Below are positions 2,565 to 8,749 of a stretch of 35,640 bases of DNA, piece by piece. The notes beneath the pieces are model-generated. The model was given only the letters and a program-made list of their open reading frames with translations, was not told the origin of the DNA and made no database searches. Location of the stretch: contig JAUZRS010000050.1 in the NCBI GenBank assembly GCA_030950195.1, positions 1 through 35,640 on the forward strand, written 5' to 3'. Position 1 is the stretch's first letter; every line of letters begins with the position of its first letter. The DNA comes from Gammaproteobacteria bacterium (lineage in GTDB: Bacteria; Pseudomonadota; Gammaproteobacteria; JAUZRS01). Position numbers and translations under genes: made by a program.

Positions 2565-2683
2565 GTTTTCAGGTCATCTGATGTTTAAAGATGAGAGTAA
2601 TTATACCCGATATTACAAAGCACAGATATTGGCTGTTGTTGCTGTTATTATTAATTTTATGTTGTACTGGTGGGTGTTTTACA

Positions 2684-3868
2684 ATGTTTTTAGGGATAAA
2701 AAGAGTATTGATAGAGGGTTGGCGTAATCGTGTGCCGTCGAAATTGTTGTTGGTCATATCCTTGGCGACGGTGTTAATTATCTCAATGCTCAACATTAGC
2801 TTTACGTTTGGTTATCGAATCATGGAGCGTTACGTGCCCCTTCTGGACGCTTCGATGGTGATCAAATTGGAGGCGGCTTCCGCTCATTTGTGGTTTGAAG
2901 AGTTGATCAGCAACGATGAAGCAGAAAGTATTGATGCGGTTTTGTCTCACCTTGATCGTGCGGTTTGGTATGCGAACGCGATGTTGCACGGTGGAGAAAA
3001 TCATAAGGGGCGTTTTCTAGCACTGCAAGATCCTCTGTTGATTGACGACGCTGAGAAGATTGTGGTGCAGTTGCAACGGTTTAGAAGCATGACTCTACAG
3101 CGTTTTCAAAACTTCAAAAGCTCAGGTATTGGCAGTGACATTGATCAACGTTATGACGCTCTCTTTAAAAGGTTGCTGGTTAGCGCAGACCAGTTAGAGG
3201 CGGGTTTACAACACAATGTTGATGTGAAGCTCAGGCAATTTGAGCAGGTGCATACTCTATTGATCTTGTTTTTGCTGTTGCTGGCGACGATTGTTTTTGG
3301 CTTCTTTTTTCGTTATGAACGGGAACGAGCAAAAAATTTAGCGCAAATTCATGCCAGCAATGATGCTTTAAAACGCTTGTCGATGATGGATGCCTTAACC
3401 GCCATTGCCAATCGTCGTCATTTTGACGACTGTTTTGAAAATGAGTGGCAGCGAGCGATTCGGGAAAAGTCGCCGCTTTCGGTGTTGATGATTGATGTGG
3501 ACTATTTCAAAGCTTTTAATGATCACTACGGTCATTTGGCCGGTGATGAATGTCTGATCAAGATTGCCACCACCTTGGCCAGTGCCTTTAGACGACCGGC
3601 AGATTTGGTGGCGCGTTTTGGCGGTGAGGAGTTTTCCGTTATTTTACCCAACAGTGTGGAGTCTTATAACGACGCCATGCGTTGCAATGAATTGATCGAA
3701 GGGTTGGCCATTCCGCATGTCAAAGGCAAGGTGGTGACGGTCAGTATTGGGGTGGCTTCAATGGTGCCACGTCTTGATACACCGGCAACGGAATTGATAA
3801 AACGTGCCGATCAGGCGCTTTATGCGGCCAAGTCAGAGGGACGCAATCGTGTGGTATTGGCCTCGTGA
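2684..3868 (+). CDS. Membrane-anchored diguanylate cyclase (GGDEF)
   Basis: ORF 2591-3868. Two TM segments flank a ~180 aa sensor region; C-terminal [13 protein letters not shown]…[12 protein letters not shown]…[15 protein letters not shown]. Start uncertain (ATG 2684 preferred over 2591). Confidence 0.88.
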
Positions 3869-4434
3869 AATATTTGGCCGGTGTGGATGAAGTAGGCAGA
3901 GGGCCATTGGTGGGATCGGTGGTGACAGCGGCGGTGATTTTAAACCCAGAGCGGCCGATTGTGGGTTTGATGGATTCAAAAAAACTCAGTGAAAAAAAAC
4001 GTGAAGCACTGTTTGCCGAGATTCAGGACAAGGCGCTGGCCTTTTGCATTGCGGAGGCAACGGCAGCGGAAATTGATAAGATTAATATTTTGCAGGCCAC
4101 GATGTTGGCGATGAAGCGTGCTGTTGAAGGTTTGACGATTATTCCGCACTTGGTGCAAGTGGACGGCAATCGCTGTCCTGATATTGACTTGCCTTGTGAA
4201 GCGATTGTGAAAGGCGATGCCTTGGTGGCACAGATCAGCGCGGCGTCGATTTTGGCCAAGGTGTATCGAGATCGACAGATGTGGGTTTTAGATCAAAAAT
4301 ACCCGCAGTACGGTTTTGCTCAGCATAAGGGTTACCCCACCAAAGCCCATCGTCAGGCGTTGCTGGAGTTTGGGGTGATCGATGAACATCGGCGCAGTTT
4401 TCGTCCGGTGGCTCAACGGCTCAGCTCTGAGTAA
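3865..4434 (+). CDS. rnhB: Ribonuclease HII
   Basis: [64 protein letters not shown] start overlaps the upstream stop (GTGA). Confidence 0.95.
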
Positions 4435-4448
4435 ACACTTTCATTTTA

Positions 4449-4464
4449 TGGCAAGCGTTTTGCC
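4449..4464 (+). promoter_or_regulatory. Putative sigma54 (RpoN) -24/-12 promoter
   Basis: TGGCAAGCGTTTTGCC: GG-N10-GC spacing against consensus TGGCACG-RNNN-TTGCW; 60 nt upstream of the repeat protein ATG. Confidence 0.6.
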
Positions 4465-4523
4465 TCATTGCTACAAATAAGGCTTTCTGGTCTCTTTTAT
4501 TTGTGCCGTCTTTGAGGTGTATT

Positions 4524-5432
4524 ATGAAATCTGTACAACGTCTTGCAGTTGCTCTCTTTTTGTCTTGTTTTTCCCTGTTTTTTTCCAATCTGGCGTTTGC
4601 GGAGGGGATCTCTCCCAGCCATGTCTATCAAAATACACAACGTATGATGGCGGAAATCAGCCTAATTCGGCAGAAATTGGATGTACAGGACACGCCTCGT
4701 CATTCTGGGGTACAGGTAAAGAAAAAACCGATTCATGTCTATGCCAAAGCTTTAGAAGTGATGGAGAAAGTGGCGCGCGCGCAAACGCGGCAGGGACTGA
4801 CTCCGACAGAAATTGGCAGCATTCCGATTCGAAACATATCGCCAACGGAAGTGTTTGCCGTCAGTGAGCGTATTTTGCTCGAGTTGCGTCGCCTGAAGAA
4901 AAAATTAAACATTGCTCAACAGATTCAAGAGCCGCCGTTTGTGGCAGGTAAACGCCCCTCCGATGCCTATGAAAACATGTGGAATGCCTCTTATCTTTTG
5001 GATGCTGTAGCCGGTGAGATTAAGCCTTCATTTGTGTTTCGCAACAGTCGCTTGATTTTGGCGGAGCTGGGGCAAATTTCAACTAAGTTGGGGTTTTCCG
5101 TGTTAACAAAAGCACCTGAATCCGTTGCGGGTAAGCAGCCCAAAGATGTGAATTTACAGAGTTTTAAAAACATGCATTTGCTGGCGCGTTTGCAGCGTAA
5201 ATTAAACATTGAACCTCTGCGCGCACCGAGCTTCCCCAATGGCAAAATCACCCCTTCTGATGTGTACGACACCACCCATATTTTACTGGCTGAACTGGTG
5301 AGAATTAAAGTGGCATTGGAGATCAATACCCCTCGTCCTGAGGTTGAACTGTTGGAAGGTAAACGCCCTGCTGATGTGTTGTCTCAGATGCAGTTGATTG
5401 CAGAAAACATCAGGGTCCTGACGAAAAGCTGA
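4524..5432 (+). CDS. Secreted/periplasmic repeat protein of unknown function
   Basis: ATG 4524 within ORF 4503-5432. Signal peptide MKSVQRLAVALFLSCFSLFFSNLAFA|EG; about eight degenerate copies of a P-[ST]-x-V-[YF]…ILLAELxxIxxKL type motif. Confidence 0.85.
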   Translation: MKSVQRLAVALFLSCFSLFFSNLAFAEGISPSHVYQNTQRMMAEISLIRQKLDVQDTPRHSGVQVKKKPIHVYAKALEVMEKVARAQTRQGLTPTEIGSIPIRNISPTEVFAVSERILLELRRLKKKLNIAQQIQEPPFVAGKRPSDAYENMWNASYLLDAVAGEIKPSFVFRNSRLILAELGQISTKLGFSVLTKAPESVAGKQPKDVNLQSFKNMHLLARLQRKLNIEPLRAPSFPNGKITPSDVYDTTHILLAELVRIKVALEINTPRPEVELLEGKRPADVLSQMQLIAENIRVLTKS

Positions 5433-5483
5433 TGTTGGTTTTTGTGTGAGCGAGACGATCTGGATTGGTTTGGGAGTGGGACA

Positions 5484-8048
5484 ATGTTGCTGAAAATGAT
5501 GGATATGAAGTTGGCCAACAAAATTATGGCGTTGCCAGCGGTAGTTGCGCTGTTTTTGCTGCTCTCGGGTGGACTGACGTGGTGGAAACTCAATACGATA
5601 GGTGAGAATGTATCCCTGTTGACCACGGTGTTGGTGCCCGAGGCGAATGAGGCCACGGCGCTGTTGCATAATTTATTAAAGAAAGAGACGGTGGTAGAGA
5701 CGTATTTGCGAACCGGTGATCCGTTTGATGCGGGGCGTTTCGAGGTTTTACAGATGAGAGGCGAGGAGATTGGTGAGCGTTTAACCGCGTTGGTGGAGAG
5801 TAAAGAAGATCAAGAAGTGATTACTTTATTGTTATCTCAAGATCAGCAATACAATCGCATTTTTTTACAACAGGTGGTGCCTCAGATGAATCAGCAGCGG
5901 GATTTGCTGCAACAACTGTTGCAGCAACACGGTCCTGAAACGGAAAAATTATTAATTGATATTACTGAGATGGCGTTTGTCGATAAAAAAATGGTGGTGG
6001 CTGAGGCGGCTTTGATCAGCCTAAAGTCTTTTATGAACGCCAGTGTTTTTTTGGAGCATTATGTGGTGAGTCATCTTGGGCAAGATGCAGAGCGGTTTCG
6101 GATGGAAATGCTGGCCACAGAAAGTGGTTTTTATGAGATGGACGATGCCATTACCGATCCGCGTCGAAGGGAGTGGTTAGAGCAGATTGAGAAAGAGCTG
6201 CATCATTACGGAACGGATTTTGAAGATTTGGTGATCGTGATTAAAGAGCGTGATCGACTGATTTCTGCTGTGTTAGACCCTCTGCGTGAGAGGATTTCTG
6301 ATGCTGCACTGCGCATTCAAGCCATTGCTTGGAATGAATTAGATGATGTGGGTGTAACGGTAGAATCGGTGGTGAGCAGTACACACCTACTGCTGTTGGC
6401 GGTGATTGTGGTCTCTCTGCTTGTAGGGTTGTCACTGGCCTTTTTTGTTACCGCTGGCATTACCAAAGCGATAAAAATCGCTGTGTCGGTGGCCAACCGA
6501 ATTGCCAATGATGATTTTAATTCTACGATTAAAGTGACCTCTAAAGACGAAACAGGTCAGTTGTTGAAGGCCTTTCAAATCATGCAGAATAATTTGAAAC
6601 AGCGCATTGAATCAGAACGTGAAATCTCGGCGGCTAATGCACGGATTAAATCAGCCTTGGACAGTACCTCTGCCAATGTGATGTTAACCAATGCGGATCT
6701 GAATATTATTTATATGAACGACGCAGCTAAGTCGTTAATGAGTGAGATTGCGCCGCAATTGAAAACGGTGATAAAACACTTTAACCCCGATTTTTTACTG
6801 GGTCAAAATATTGATGTGTTTCATCGTAATCCAAGCCATCAGCGTTCTGTTTTAGCGAGCTTGAGTAGCAGTAGCCAGTCAAATATTAAGGTGGCGGGGT
6901 TGGATTTGGATTTGATTGTAAGCCCGGTGTTGGATGATGACGGTCAGCGAGTGGGGATTGTGGCGGAATGGAGTAATCGCACTGCCGAAGTTGATGTAGA
7001 AAAAGAGGTCAGCGCGATTGTGGATGCAGCGGTGGCCGGTGATTTCAGTCGGCGCATTGAGGTGCAGGACACATCGGGTTTTTATCAGCGTTTGGCAACG
7101 GGTATTAACGAGGTTTTACAGACCAGCGAAACCGGTATTGGCGATGTGATGCGGGTGTTGCGAGCCCTTTCCGAAGGGGATTTAACCCAGCGCATTGAGG
7201 CGGATTACCAAGGCGTGTTTGCACAGCTAAAACAAGATGCCAATACCACCATTGATCGTCTTTCGCAGGTGATCGGCAATGTGCGTGAAAACTCCGATGC
7301 CATTTCCAATGCGGCGATGCAGGTCAGCAGCACGGCGCAGAGTTTGAGCCACGGTGCCAGTGAGCAGGCAGCGAGTGTAGAACAGACCTCGGCCAGTGTG
7401 GAAAAAATGAATCAATCCATTAAACAGAACGCGGACAACGCCAAAACCACCGGTGGCATTGCCACACAGGCGGTGGGTTCAGCTAAAAAAGGCGGTCAGG
7501 CGGTCAAAGAGACGGTGACGGCGATGGGGCAGATTGCGGAGAAGATCTCTGTGATTGCTGAAATTGCTTTTCAGACTAATATTTTGGCGCTCAATGCGGC
7601 CATTGAAGCGGCGCGTGCCGGTGAACACGGTAAAGGGTTTGCGGTGGTGGCTTCAGAGGTGCGTCAATTGGCAGAACGCAGTCAAACCGCTGCCTCGGAG
7701 ATTGGTGCGTTGGCCAGTTCGAGCGTTGATATTGCCCGCCAAGCGGGGGCAGTGCTGGAAGAGATGGTGCCGAGCATCAACAAAACCGCCACTTTGGTGG
7801 AGGAGATCAGCCTCTCTTCACAGACCCAATCCGTTGGAGTGGGGCAAATTGCCAATACAATGGGGCAGCTGGATCAGGTGACTCAGCAGAACGCCTCGGC
7901 TTCGGAAGAGCTGGCGGCGACGGCGGAAGAGATGCGCGGTCAGTCGGTACAACTGCAACAGTTGATTGGCTTTTTTCAGATGCGCAGCGGTGATGGTTTG
8001 TCCGATCAAACGGAGTTAGAGAGCCGAGATTCTTTGCAAGTGTGTTAA
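5484..8048 (+). CDS. Methyl-accepting chemotaxis protein: large periplasmic domain, HAMP, PAS, HAMP-like segments, MCP signalling domain
   Basis: ORF 5442-8048 (ATG 5484 likely). TM1 near the N-terminus, TM2 [24 protein letters not shown] segment …[21 protein letters not shown]…[15 protein letters not shown]…, hairpin tip [42 protein letters not shown]. Confidence 0.93.
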
Positions 8049-8113
8049 AAAGGCGGCGAAACAGAGTATCATTGCTGACCTTATTTTAAGAATCATAACG
8101 AGGGTTTGCAGCT

Positions 8114-8749
8114 GTGTTTGAATTGGTAAAAGCAGGCGGTTGGTTGATGTTGCCGATACTGCTCTGTTCCGTGGTCGCGTTGGCGATTGTGGTGGAGCGT
8201 TTTTGGGCCTTGCGGTTTGGTAATGTCTTACCGACTCAGCATCGTGCGGCACAGATCTGGAAACTTTGGAATGGCACTACTAGCCTAGACGGTGCGGCTA
8301 CTCGCCAGTTGCAACAAGGTTCTTTGTTGGGGCGTATTATGGCTGTTGGACTGCAAAATCGTCACCACAGCCGTGAGGTGATGAAAGAGAGCATTGAAGA
8401 GGCAGGGCGGCATGTGGCGCATAAGTTAGAACGTTTTCTCAATGCTCTGGGAACCATCGCTGCCATCACCCCGTTACTGGGTTTGTTGGGTACGGTGGTG
8501 GGCATGATCAGTGTTTTTACCACCATCACCAGTGCCGGTGTGGGCAATCCAAGTGAATTGGCGGGGGGGATTTCACAAGCCTTGATTACCACCGCAGCGG
8601 GTCTTTCCGTTGCCATTCCGAGCTTGATGTTCTATCGCTTATTCCGTGGCAAAGTGGATGAGCTGGTGATTGAGATGGAGCAAGAAGCGATCAAGCTGGT
8701 GGAGGTGATGCACGGTGAGCGCAGCCGTGATACGGGGGATGCGGGATGA
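8114..8749 (+). CDS. exbB: MotA/TolQ/ExbB proton channel family protein
   Basis: 211 aa; LNALGTIAAITPLLGLLGTVVGMISVFTTI…GGISQALITTAAGLSVAIPSLMFYRLF; followed by an ExbD-like partner. Confidence 0.88.
   Translation: MFELVKAGGWLMLPILLCSVVALAIVVERFWALRFGNVLPTQHRAAQIWKLWNGTTSLDGAATRQLQQGSLLGRIMAVGLQNRHHSREVMKESIEEAGRHVAHKLERFLNALGTIAAITPLLGLLGTVVGMISVFTTITSAGVGNPSELAGGISQALITTAAGLSVAIPSLMFYRLFRGKVDELVIEMEQEAIKLVEVMHGERSRDTGDAG

Follow-up and report, generated by a model that had tools for sequence, protein, structure and literature searches.

An eight-helix periplasmic repeat protein encoded beside membrane sensors and proposed as a sensor partner

Introduction

Directly upstream of a chemoreceptor (MCP) gene in a gammaproteobacterial contig lies a gene for an exported protein built of repeats, which raises the question of what such a protein might do beside a sensor. 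The stretch of DNA analysed here, 35,640 nucleotides in all and referred to below as the window, had been annotated previously from its letters; that first-pass annotation did not recognise a characterised family in the protein and offered a periplasmic ligand-binding or receptor-accessory role as a guess.

Results

The gene, its export signal and its setting

The gene and its signal peptide are placed as follows:

4524..5432, + strand: eight-helix periplasmic repeat protein, proposed sensor partner (ORF with ribosome-binding site, AlphaFold2 model, dN/dS)
4524..4604, + strand: Sec signal peptide, residues 1-27, cleavage near NLAFA/EG (sequence; same kind in homologues)

The ORF runs from an ATG at 4524 to a stop at 5432 and encodes 302 aa, about 275 of which form the mature part, and a good ribosome-binding site (TTGAGGTG) stands ahead of the ATG. 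The signal peptide that the first-pass annotation had read as ending at NLAFA/EG is evident, and a Sec-type hydrophobic N-terminal segment was found in 58 of 61 homologues, with a lipobox in none of the 61. From these sequence features, the repeat protein is predicted to be exported to the periplasm and to be soluble there. Comparison with the orthologue in a sister species gave a dN of 0.025 and a dS of 0.22, indicating that the gene is under purifying selection.

Upstream of the repeat gene lie an RNase HII gene and a GGDEF gene. The latter encodes a membrane protein (window 2591-3868, same strand, two genes 5' of the repeat gene), and its 3' end overlaps the start of the RNase HII gene by 4 bp. 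The chemoreceptor gene does follow directly, as had been described, with its ATG at 5484, 51 nt past the repeat gene. Further downstream are ExbB/ExbD-like genes, LpxK, CheV (CheW-REC), FlgN, FlgA, rod and hook genes, FleQ, FliF and FliG; given CheV and the flagellar genes, the organism appears motile. Promoter and terminator scans of positions 4380-8130 returned signals at chance level only.

Repeat architecture and predicted fold

Past the signal peptide, the protein divides into two halves:

4608..5018, + strand: first half, residues 29-165, 137 aa, with units at 29 (A), 67 (B), 105 (A) and 143 (B, short) (self-comparison; four of the eight helices)
5019..5429, + strand: second half, residues 166-302, 137 aa, with units at 166 (A), 204 (B), 242 (A) and 280 (B, short) (duplicates the first half without gaps)

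The eight unit starts, at residues 29, 67, 105, 143, 166, 204, 242 and 280, are separated by steps of 38, 38, 38, 23, 38, 38 and 38 aa, the single 23-aa step falling at the middle. Gapless self-comparison gave z = 10.6 at a shift of 137 and z = 5.8 at shifts of both 38 and 76, whereas in 1000 shuffled controls the best z averaged 2.9 and reached 5.5 at most. When the 137-aa halves were compared with each other, their gapless alignment showed 27% identity with z = 10.3, a value that none of 10,000 shuffles came near. The A units scored 38-47 against each other and the B units 4-28, so that type A is a tight class and type B a loose one; A against B scored weakly. The roughly eight degenerate units of the first-pass annotation are thus all found where it had placed them, at a more regular spacing than it had noted. 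Its alternation of two types also stands, firmly for A and only as a loose class for B, but its division into four A+B modules of about 70 aa gives way to a duplicated A-B-A-B half of 137 aa.

Structure prediction, which had been suggested as a check on the repeats, was carried out with AlphaFold2 using the window protein and eight relatives as input, and yielded eight helices, one per unit, with a mean pLDDT of 91.8 and a pTM of 0.90. The linkers between helices are about 17 residues long within each half and about 4 between the halves. Since the within-half linkers are long enough for it, the helices of a half could run parallel, with a tight turn joining the halves.

Weak heptad periodicity does occur in helical proteins, and one might on that ground ascribe the alternation of repeats to chance or low complexity and regard the protein as an ordinary helical one. 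We consider this next to impossible: the self-comparison refutes it through the exact 38-aa pitch and the gapless 137-aa duplication at a z of about 10, each unit is predicted to form one helix, and the homologues keep both length and repeat architecture, even below 30% identity.

Searches for known families

Pfam, NCBIfam and PDB sequence searches, run with the single protein and with a 13-member profile, returned nothing above threshold. DUF7219 (PF23856) was rejected as a candidate, as its best match covered just a single unit (residues 239-269) and scored 15 bits (E=0.02), against a gathering cut-off of 27 bits. A Foldseek search of the repeat-protein model against PDB and BFVD (viral) retrieved nothing at E<=0.001, and the TM-score never exceeded 0.26. 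The bilobal alpha/beta fold of TorT and the periplasmic binding proteins was likewise rejected, given an all-helical model with no Foldseek match in PDB at E<=0.001 and no PDB sequence match. Pfam matches to LTXXQ (the CpxP/Spy/ZraP family) and to PepSY (the domain of DbfQ) were sought at E<=1 and none was found for either. With the defining feature of each family tested and absent, the repeat protein is not a TorT, LTXXQ or PepSY family member. Searches of the literature turned up analogues but no description of an eight-helix repeat family. The first-pass annotation's view that this is not a characterised family is therefore borne out by the lack of any match to a named family or fold; the family is apparently new and its fold apparently undescribed, and we rate it as falling within a functional class already known, that of periplasmic sensor partners.

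Distribution of the family

About 65 homologous loci were found, in Gammaproteobacteria, other classes of Pseudomonadota and SAR324. Searched with the 13-member profile, 23 of 369 sampled Gammaproteobacteria genomes and 32 of the 399 genomes of the phylum sample contain the family. In two other classes, it was found in 22 of 48 and in 4 of 78 genomes, respectively. Eight named loci came from a search with a 4-row alignment, and the named members belong to Candidatus Halobeggiatoa, Thioploca, Thiotrichales HSG1, SAR324, Alteromonas sp. a30, Endozoicomonas sp. G2_1 and a Cellvibrionaceae bacterium. The family was not found in plasmid and phage collections at the sensitivity used, and so it is not evidently mobile-element cargo. 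Members linked to histidine kinases and those linked to MCPs have the conserved polar residues H71, K82, S156, D160, E257 and K262 in common.

Double-length homologues of about 630 aa, consisting of two fused copies, are encoded at L035 and L122-L126 (e.g. L035:7715-9607) and are paired with hybrid kinases. On the tree, the N-copies and the C-copies fall into separate clades, so the fusion is old.

Pairing with membrane sensors

The non-redundant set comprised 66 loci including the window, two of which end at a contig edge, leaving 64 that could be evaluated. The adjacent same-strand gene encodes a sensor in 57 of these 64, which are not 57 independent events because many of the kinase-linked loci are related to one another. 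These sensors, which have domains outside the cytoplasm, are MCPs, histidine kinases (mostly hybrid) and GGDEF proteins. Pfam searches of 54 of them gave 33 with HisKA, 17 with MCPsignal, 3 with GGDEF and one kinase sensor domain truncated by a contig end, and these tallies were combined with sequence motifs to assign classes to loci. The remaining members of the 57 are the window, L010 (with a split MCP gene) and L126 (with a kinase cut by the contig end). HAMP was detected in 45 of the 54 Pfam-scanned sensor neighbours. The MCP lies immediately upstream, not downstream, in four of the 57 sensor-paired loci. By phmmer, a downstream same-strand sensor follows 48 of 63 homologues, compared with 23 of the 455 other genes within the same loci, which served as the background (Fisher p 9e-37). 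The gaps within the pairs are short, and the stop and start codons overlap by exactly 4 bp in 11 of them.

The first-pass annotation had asked whether homologues consistently neighbour MCP genes. Sensors do adjoin the family at the frequency given above, with the repeat architecture kept; an exclusive link to MCPs does not hold, as a histidine kinase is the more frequent partner and a GGDEF protein an occasional one. Partners beyond chemoreceptors point to a role as a general sensor partner. Partner class is clustered on the tree and changes on well-supported branches, with at least seven such changes for histidine kinases and at least four for MCPs; because adjacency is kept through these switches, the pairing must have been re-established repeatedly. 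Where a genome has more than one copy, each copy has its own sensor: G217 has three kinases (one of them beside a double-length protein) and G373 has one kinase and one MCP.

A recurrent operon (L102-L105, L107, L108, L110, L115-L117, L119 and L120) combines the repeat protein with a Cache-HAMP-GAF hybrid kinase. Some of these loci have a CHASE3 membrane protein upstream, and the one downstream protein tested, that of L104, is a CheB-CheR fusion. The operon resembles an uncharacterised chemosensory-like phosphorelay. Separately, the MCP adjoining the L010 homologue (L010:9338-11196) is split into two ORFs of 235 and 316 aa, which is possibly due to a frameshift or marks a pseudogene.

Mirror-tree comparisons were made between the repeat protein and its kinase partners. 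With corrected distances, the correlation between the repeat protein and the kinase sensor domain is r=0.80, no weaker than that between domains of the kinase itself, and the advantage of the sensor domain over the kinase core lies within the jackknife error and so is not evidence of contact; with uncorrected distances, the value for the repeat protein and sensor domain was 0.94 versus 0.81. The correlated distances show co-inheritance of repeat protein and sensor, not contact.

Loci without an adjacent full sensor

Next to the homologue, four loci of Thiotrichaceae/Thiotrichales carry a gene for a small exported protein, about 250 aa long, that has neither kinase nor MCP domains:

L041:10910-11671, small exported neighbour
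L042:4099-4830, small exported neighbour
L044:1797-2564, small exported neighbour
L045:3935-4666, small exported neighbour

The protein in L041 is weakly Cache-like (E=0.0044) and that in L042 gave no domain match; these neighbours are perhaps freestanding sensor domains. The protein encoded upstream of the homologue in L045 is 914 aa long, open at the contig end, and carries long low-complexity SKSSKDDD repeats, and a similar KSDDKKSDD-rich protein is encoded upstream of the homologue in L041.

Three further members have no sensor neighbour. One is L008, an orphan copy in genome G033, which has an unlinked kinase with a homologous sensor domain (30% identity, E 2e-44). Another is L030, which is followed by a methyltransferase gene and in whose genome neither a related sensor domain nor a homologue of a related MCP domain was found. 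The last is L141, which, like L140, is a weak match to the family.

The partner chemoreceptor in the window

The adjoining chemoreceptor contributes two features:

5484..8048, + strand: MCP, proposed partner, with TM1, periplasmic domain, TM2, HAMP, PAS-like segment, HAMP_2 and MCPsignal (Pfam; TM prediction)
5580..6386, + strand: MCP periplasmic ligand-binding domain, residues 33-301, HBM (helical bimodular) fold (AlphaFold2; Foldseek)

The transmembrane helices are predicted at about residues 14-32 and 302-320, and the AlphaFold2 model of the periplasmic domain between them has six helices, two of them very long, with a pLDDT of 89.8. Foldseek matched this model to McpS (2yfa, TM 0.75/0.85) and then to TorS (3i9y/3i9w/3o1h), including TorS-TorT complexes. 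By its model, the domain is an HBM domain, a six-helix, two-module bundle as in McpS; a Pfam scan of the MCP sequence gave no HBM match. The PAS-like segment between HAMP and HAMP_2 is a less usual cytoplasmic layout. Elsewhere in the family, the adjoining sensors have 4HB and dCache/PF21623 domains, and with sensor domains of such unrelated folds (HBM, 4HB, dCache/PF21623) one common mode of binding does not suggest itself.

Discussion

We think it likely that the repeat protein is a secreted soluble periplasmic partner, a co-receptor or modulator, dedicated to the adjoining sensor, to which it would bind. Its relatives nearly always lie beside the gene for a membrane sensor, and they are therefore probably helper proteins that adjust what the sensors detect; the receptor-accessory guess of the first-pass annotation draws its support from this adjacency, which is family-wide. 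Under the proposed mechanism, the repeat protein would be co-expressed with the adjacent sensor and would dock on its periplasmic domain, and docking would shift the sensor's signalling state, as TorT does on TorS. The repeat protein would either carry a ligand or report a condition of the envelope, and in the case of the window, CheA activity and swimming would be biased.

TorT is exported, encoded near its sensor TorS, and has a periplasmic-binding-protein fold. In the established case, TorS-TorT (PDB 3o1h, 3o1i, 3o1j), an HBM-type domain is read via a periplasmic partner, and TorT, LuxP and maltose-binding protein all bind a solute and present it to a sensor. The window's pair is similar in that an exported protein is encoded near a sensor whose HBM-type domain has TorS as its next-best fold match after McpS, and differs in that the repeat protein has eight helices and no fold match in PDB and in that its partner is an MCP, not a kinase. 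McpS binds malate and succinate directly, and we know of no need for a periplasmic partner in its case. Its HBM domain (PDB 2yfa, 2yfb) shares the fold of the window MCP's periplasmic domain, whereas direct malate/succinate binding is a feature of McpS and the window MCP is proposed to have a periplasmic partner. CpxP and ZraP, the LTXXQ modulators of CpxA and ZraS, are all-helical, soluble and periplasmic, as the repeat protein is by its model, but the latter has no LTXXQ match and differs from them in length, repeat pitch and duplicated architecture.

Among published systems, DbfQ of Vibrio cholerae is a small periplasmic protein that binds the sensor domain of the sensor kinase encoded by the adjacent gene, DbfS, and the pair forms a widespread gene module (PMC12714742). 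The repeat protein is likewise small, periplasmic and encoded beside a sensor, but DbfQ-like proteins are PepSY-type, and the partners of the repeat family include MCPs and GGDEF proteins. QseG is a sensor-kinase accessory protein that is co-encoded with QseE and acts from the periplasmic side (PMC12691602), which is the role proposed for the repeat family; QseG is an outer-membrane lipoprotein, unlike the repeat family with its lack of a lipobox.

Within the favoured reading of a dedicated sensor partner, a ligand-carrying, TorT-like role and an envelope-reporting role like that of CpxP, QseG or DbfQ are about equally likely, and we hold each only tentatively. As a solute-binding co-receptor, the eight-helix protein would bind a small molecule or peptide and present it to the sensor, consistent with the sensor adjacency, with the likeness of the MCP domain to TorS as well as McpS, and with the conserved polar residues, which could form a site. 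Against this, the protein bears no likeness to any periplasmic binding-protein fold, and among the conserved residues are helix-capping positions and an A-helix glutamate present throughout the repeats, both consistent with structural roles. A ligand-free modulator would instead report the state of the envelope (misfolding, membrane or contact stress) by binding or leaving the sensor; an all-helical protein without a binding-protein fold, the pairing with sensors of very different domain folds, and the published adjacent-gene periplasmic regulators DbfQ-DbfS (PMC12714742) and QseG-QseE (PMC12691602) speak for this. The Pfam scans without PepSY or LTXXQ matches speak against it, and the pairing with chemoreceptors points to a chemical cue, not to stress.

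A structural or enzymatic periplasmic protein could also share transcription units with sensors without touching them, and the few members without sensor neighbours (L030, L141) would fit such an arrangement. We regard it as unlikely, since adjacency persists through repeated partner switches, the genes overlap by 4 bp in some pairs, paralogues are paired one to one with sensors, and even the unlinked copy coexists with its kinase type.

Returning to the dedicated partner, a bolder version of this reading is that an undescribed fold, a duplicated four-helix repeat with linkers of about 17 residues and helices that are perhaps parallel, evolved as a general-purpose periplasmic co-receptor for structurally unrelated inputs (HBM, 4HB, dCache) and outputs (chemotaxis, phosphorelay, c-di-GMP), to which we give a little less than an even chance. 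The family would then be a rare case of one partner family paired with chemoreceptors, sensor kinases and GGDEF proteins, in which coupling could be compared across outputs. To our knowledge, most bacterial sensors have no known ligand. If the proposal is true, a widespread family of dedicated partners would account for possible failures of direct ligand screens on sensor domains, and the repeat family would name a missing component for ligand assays.
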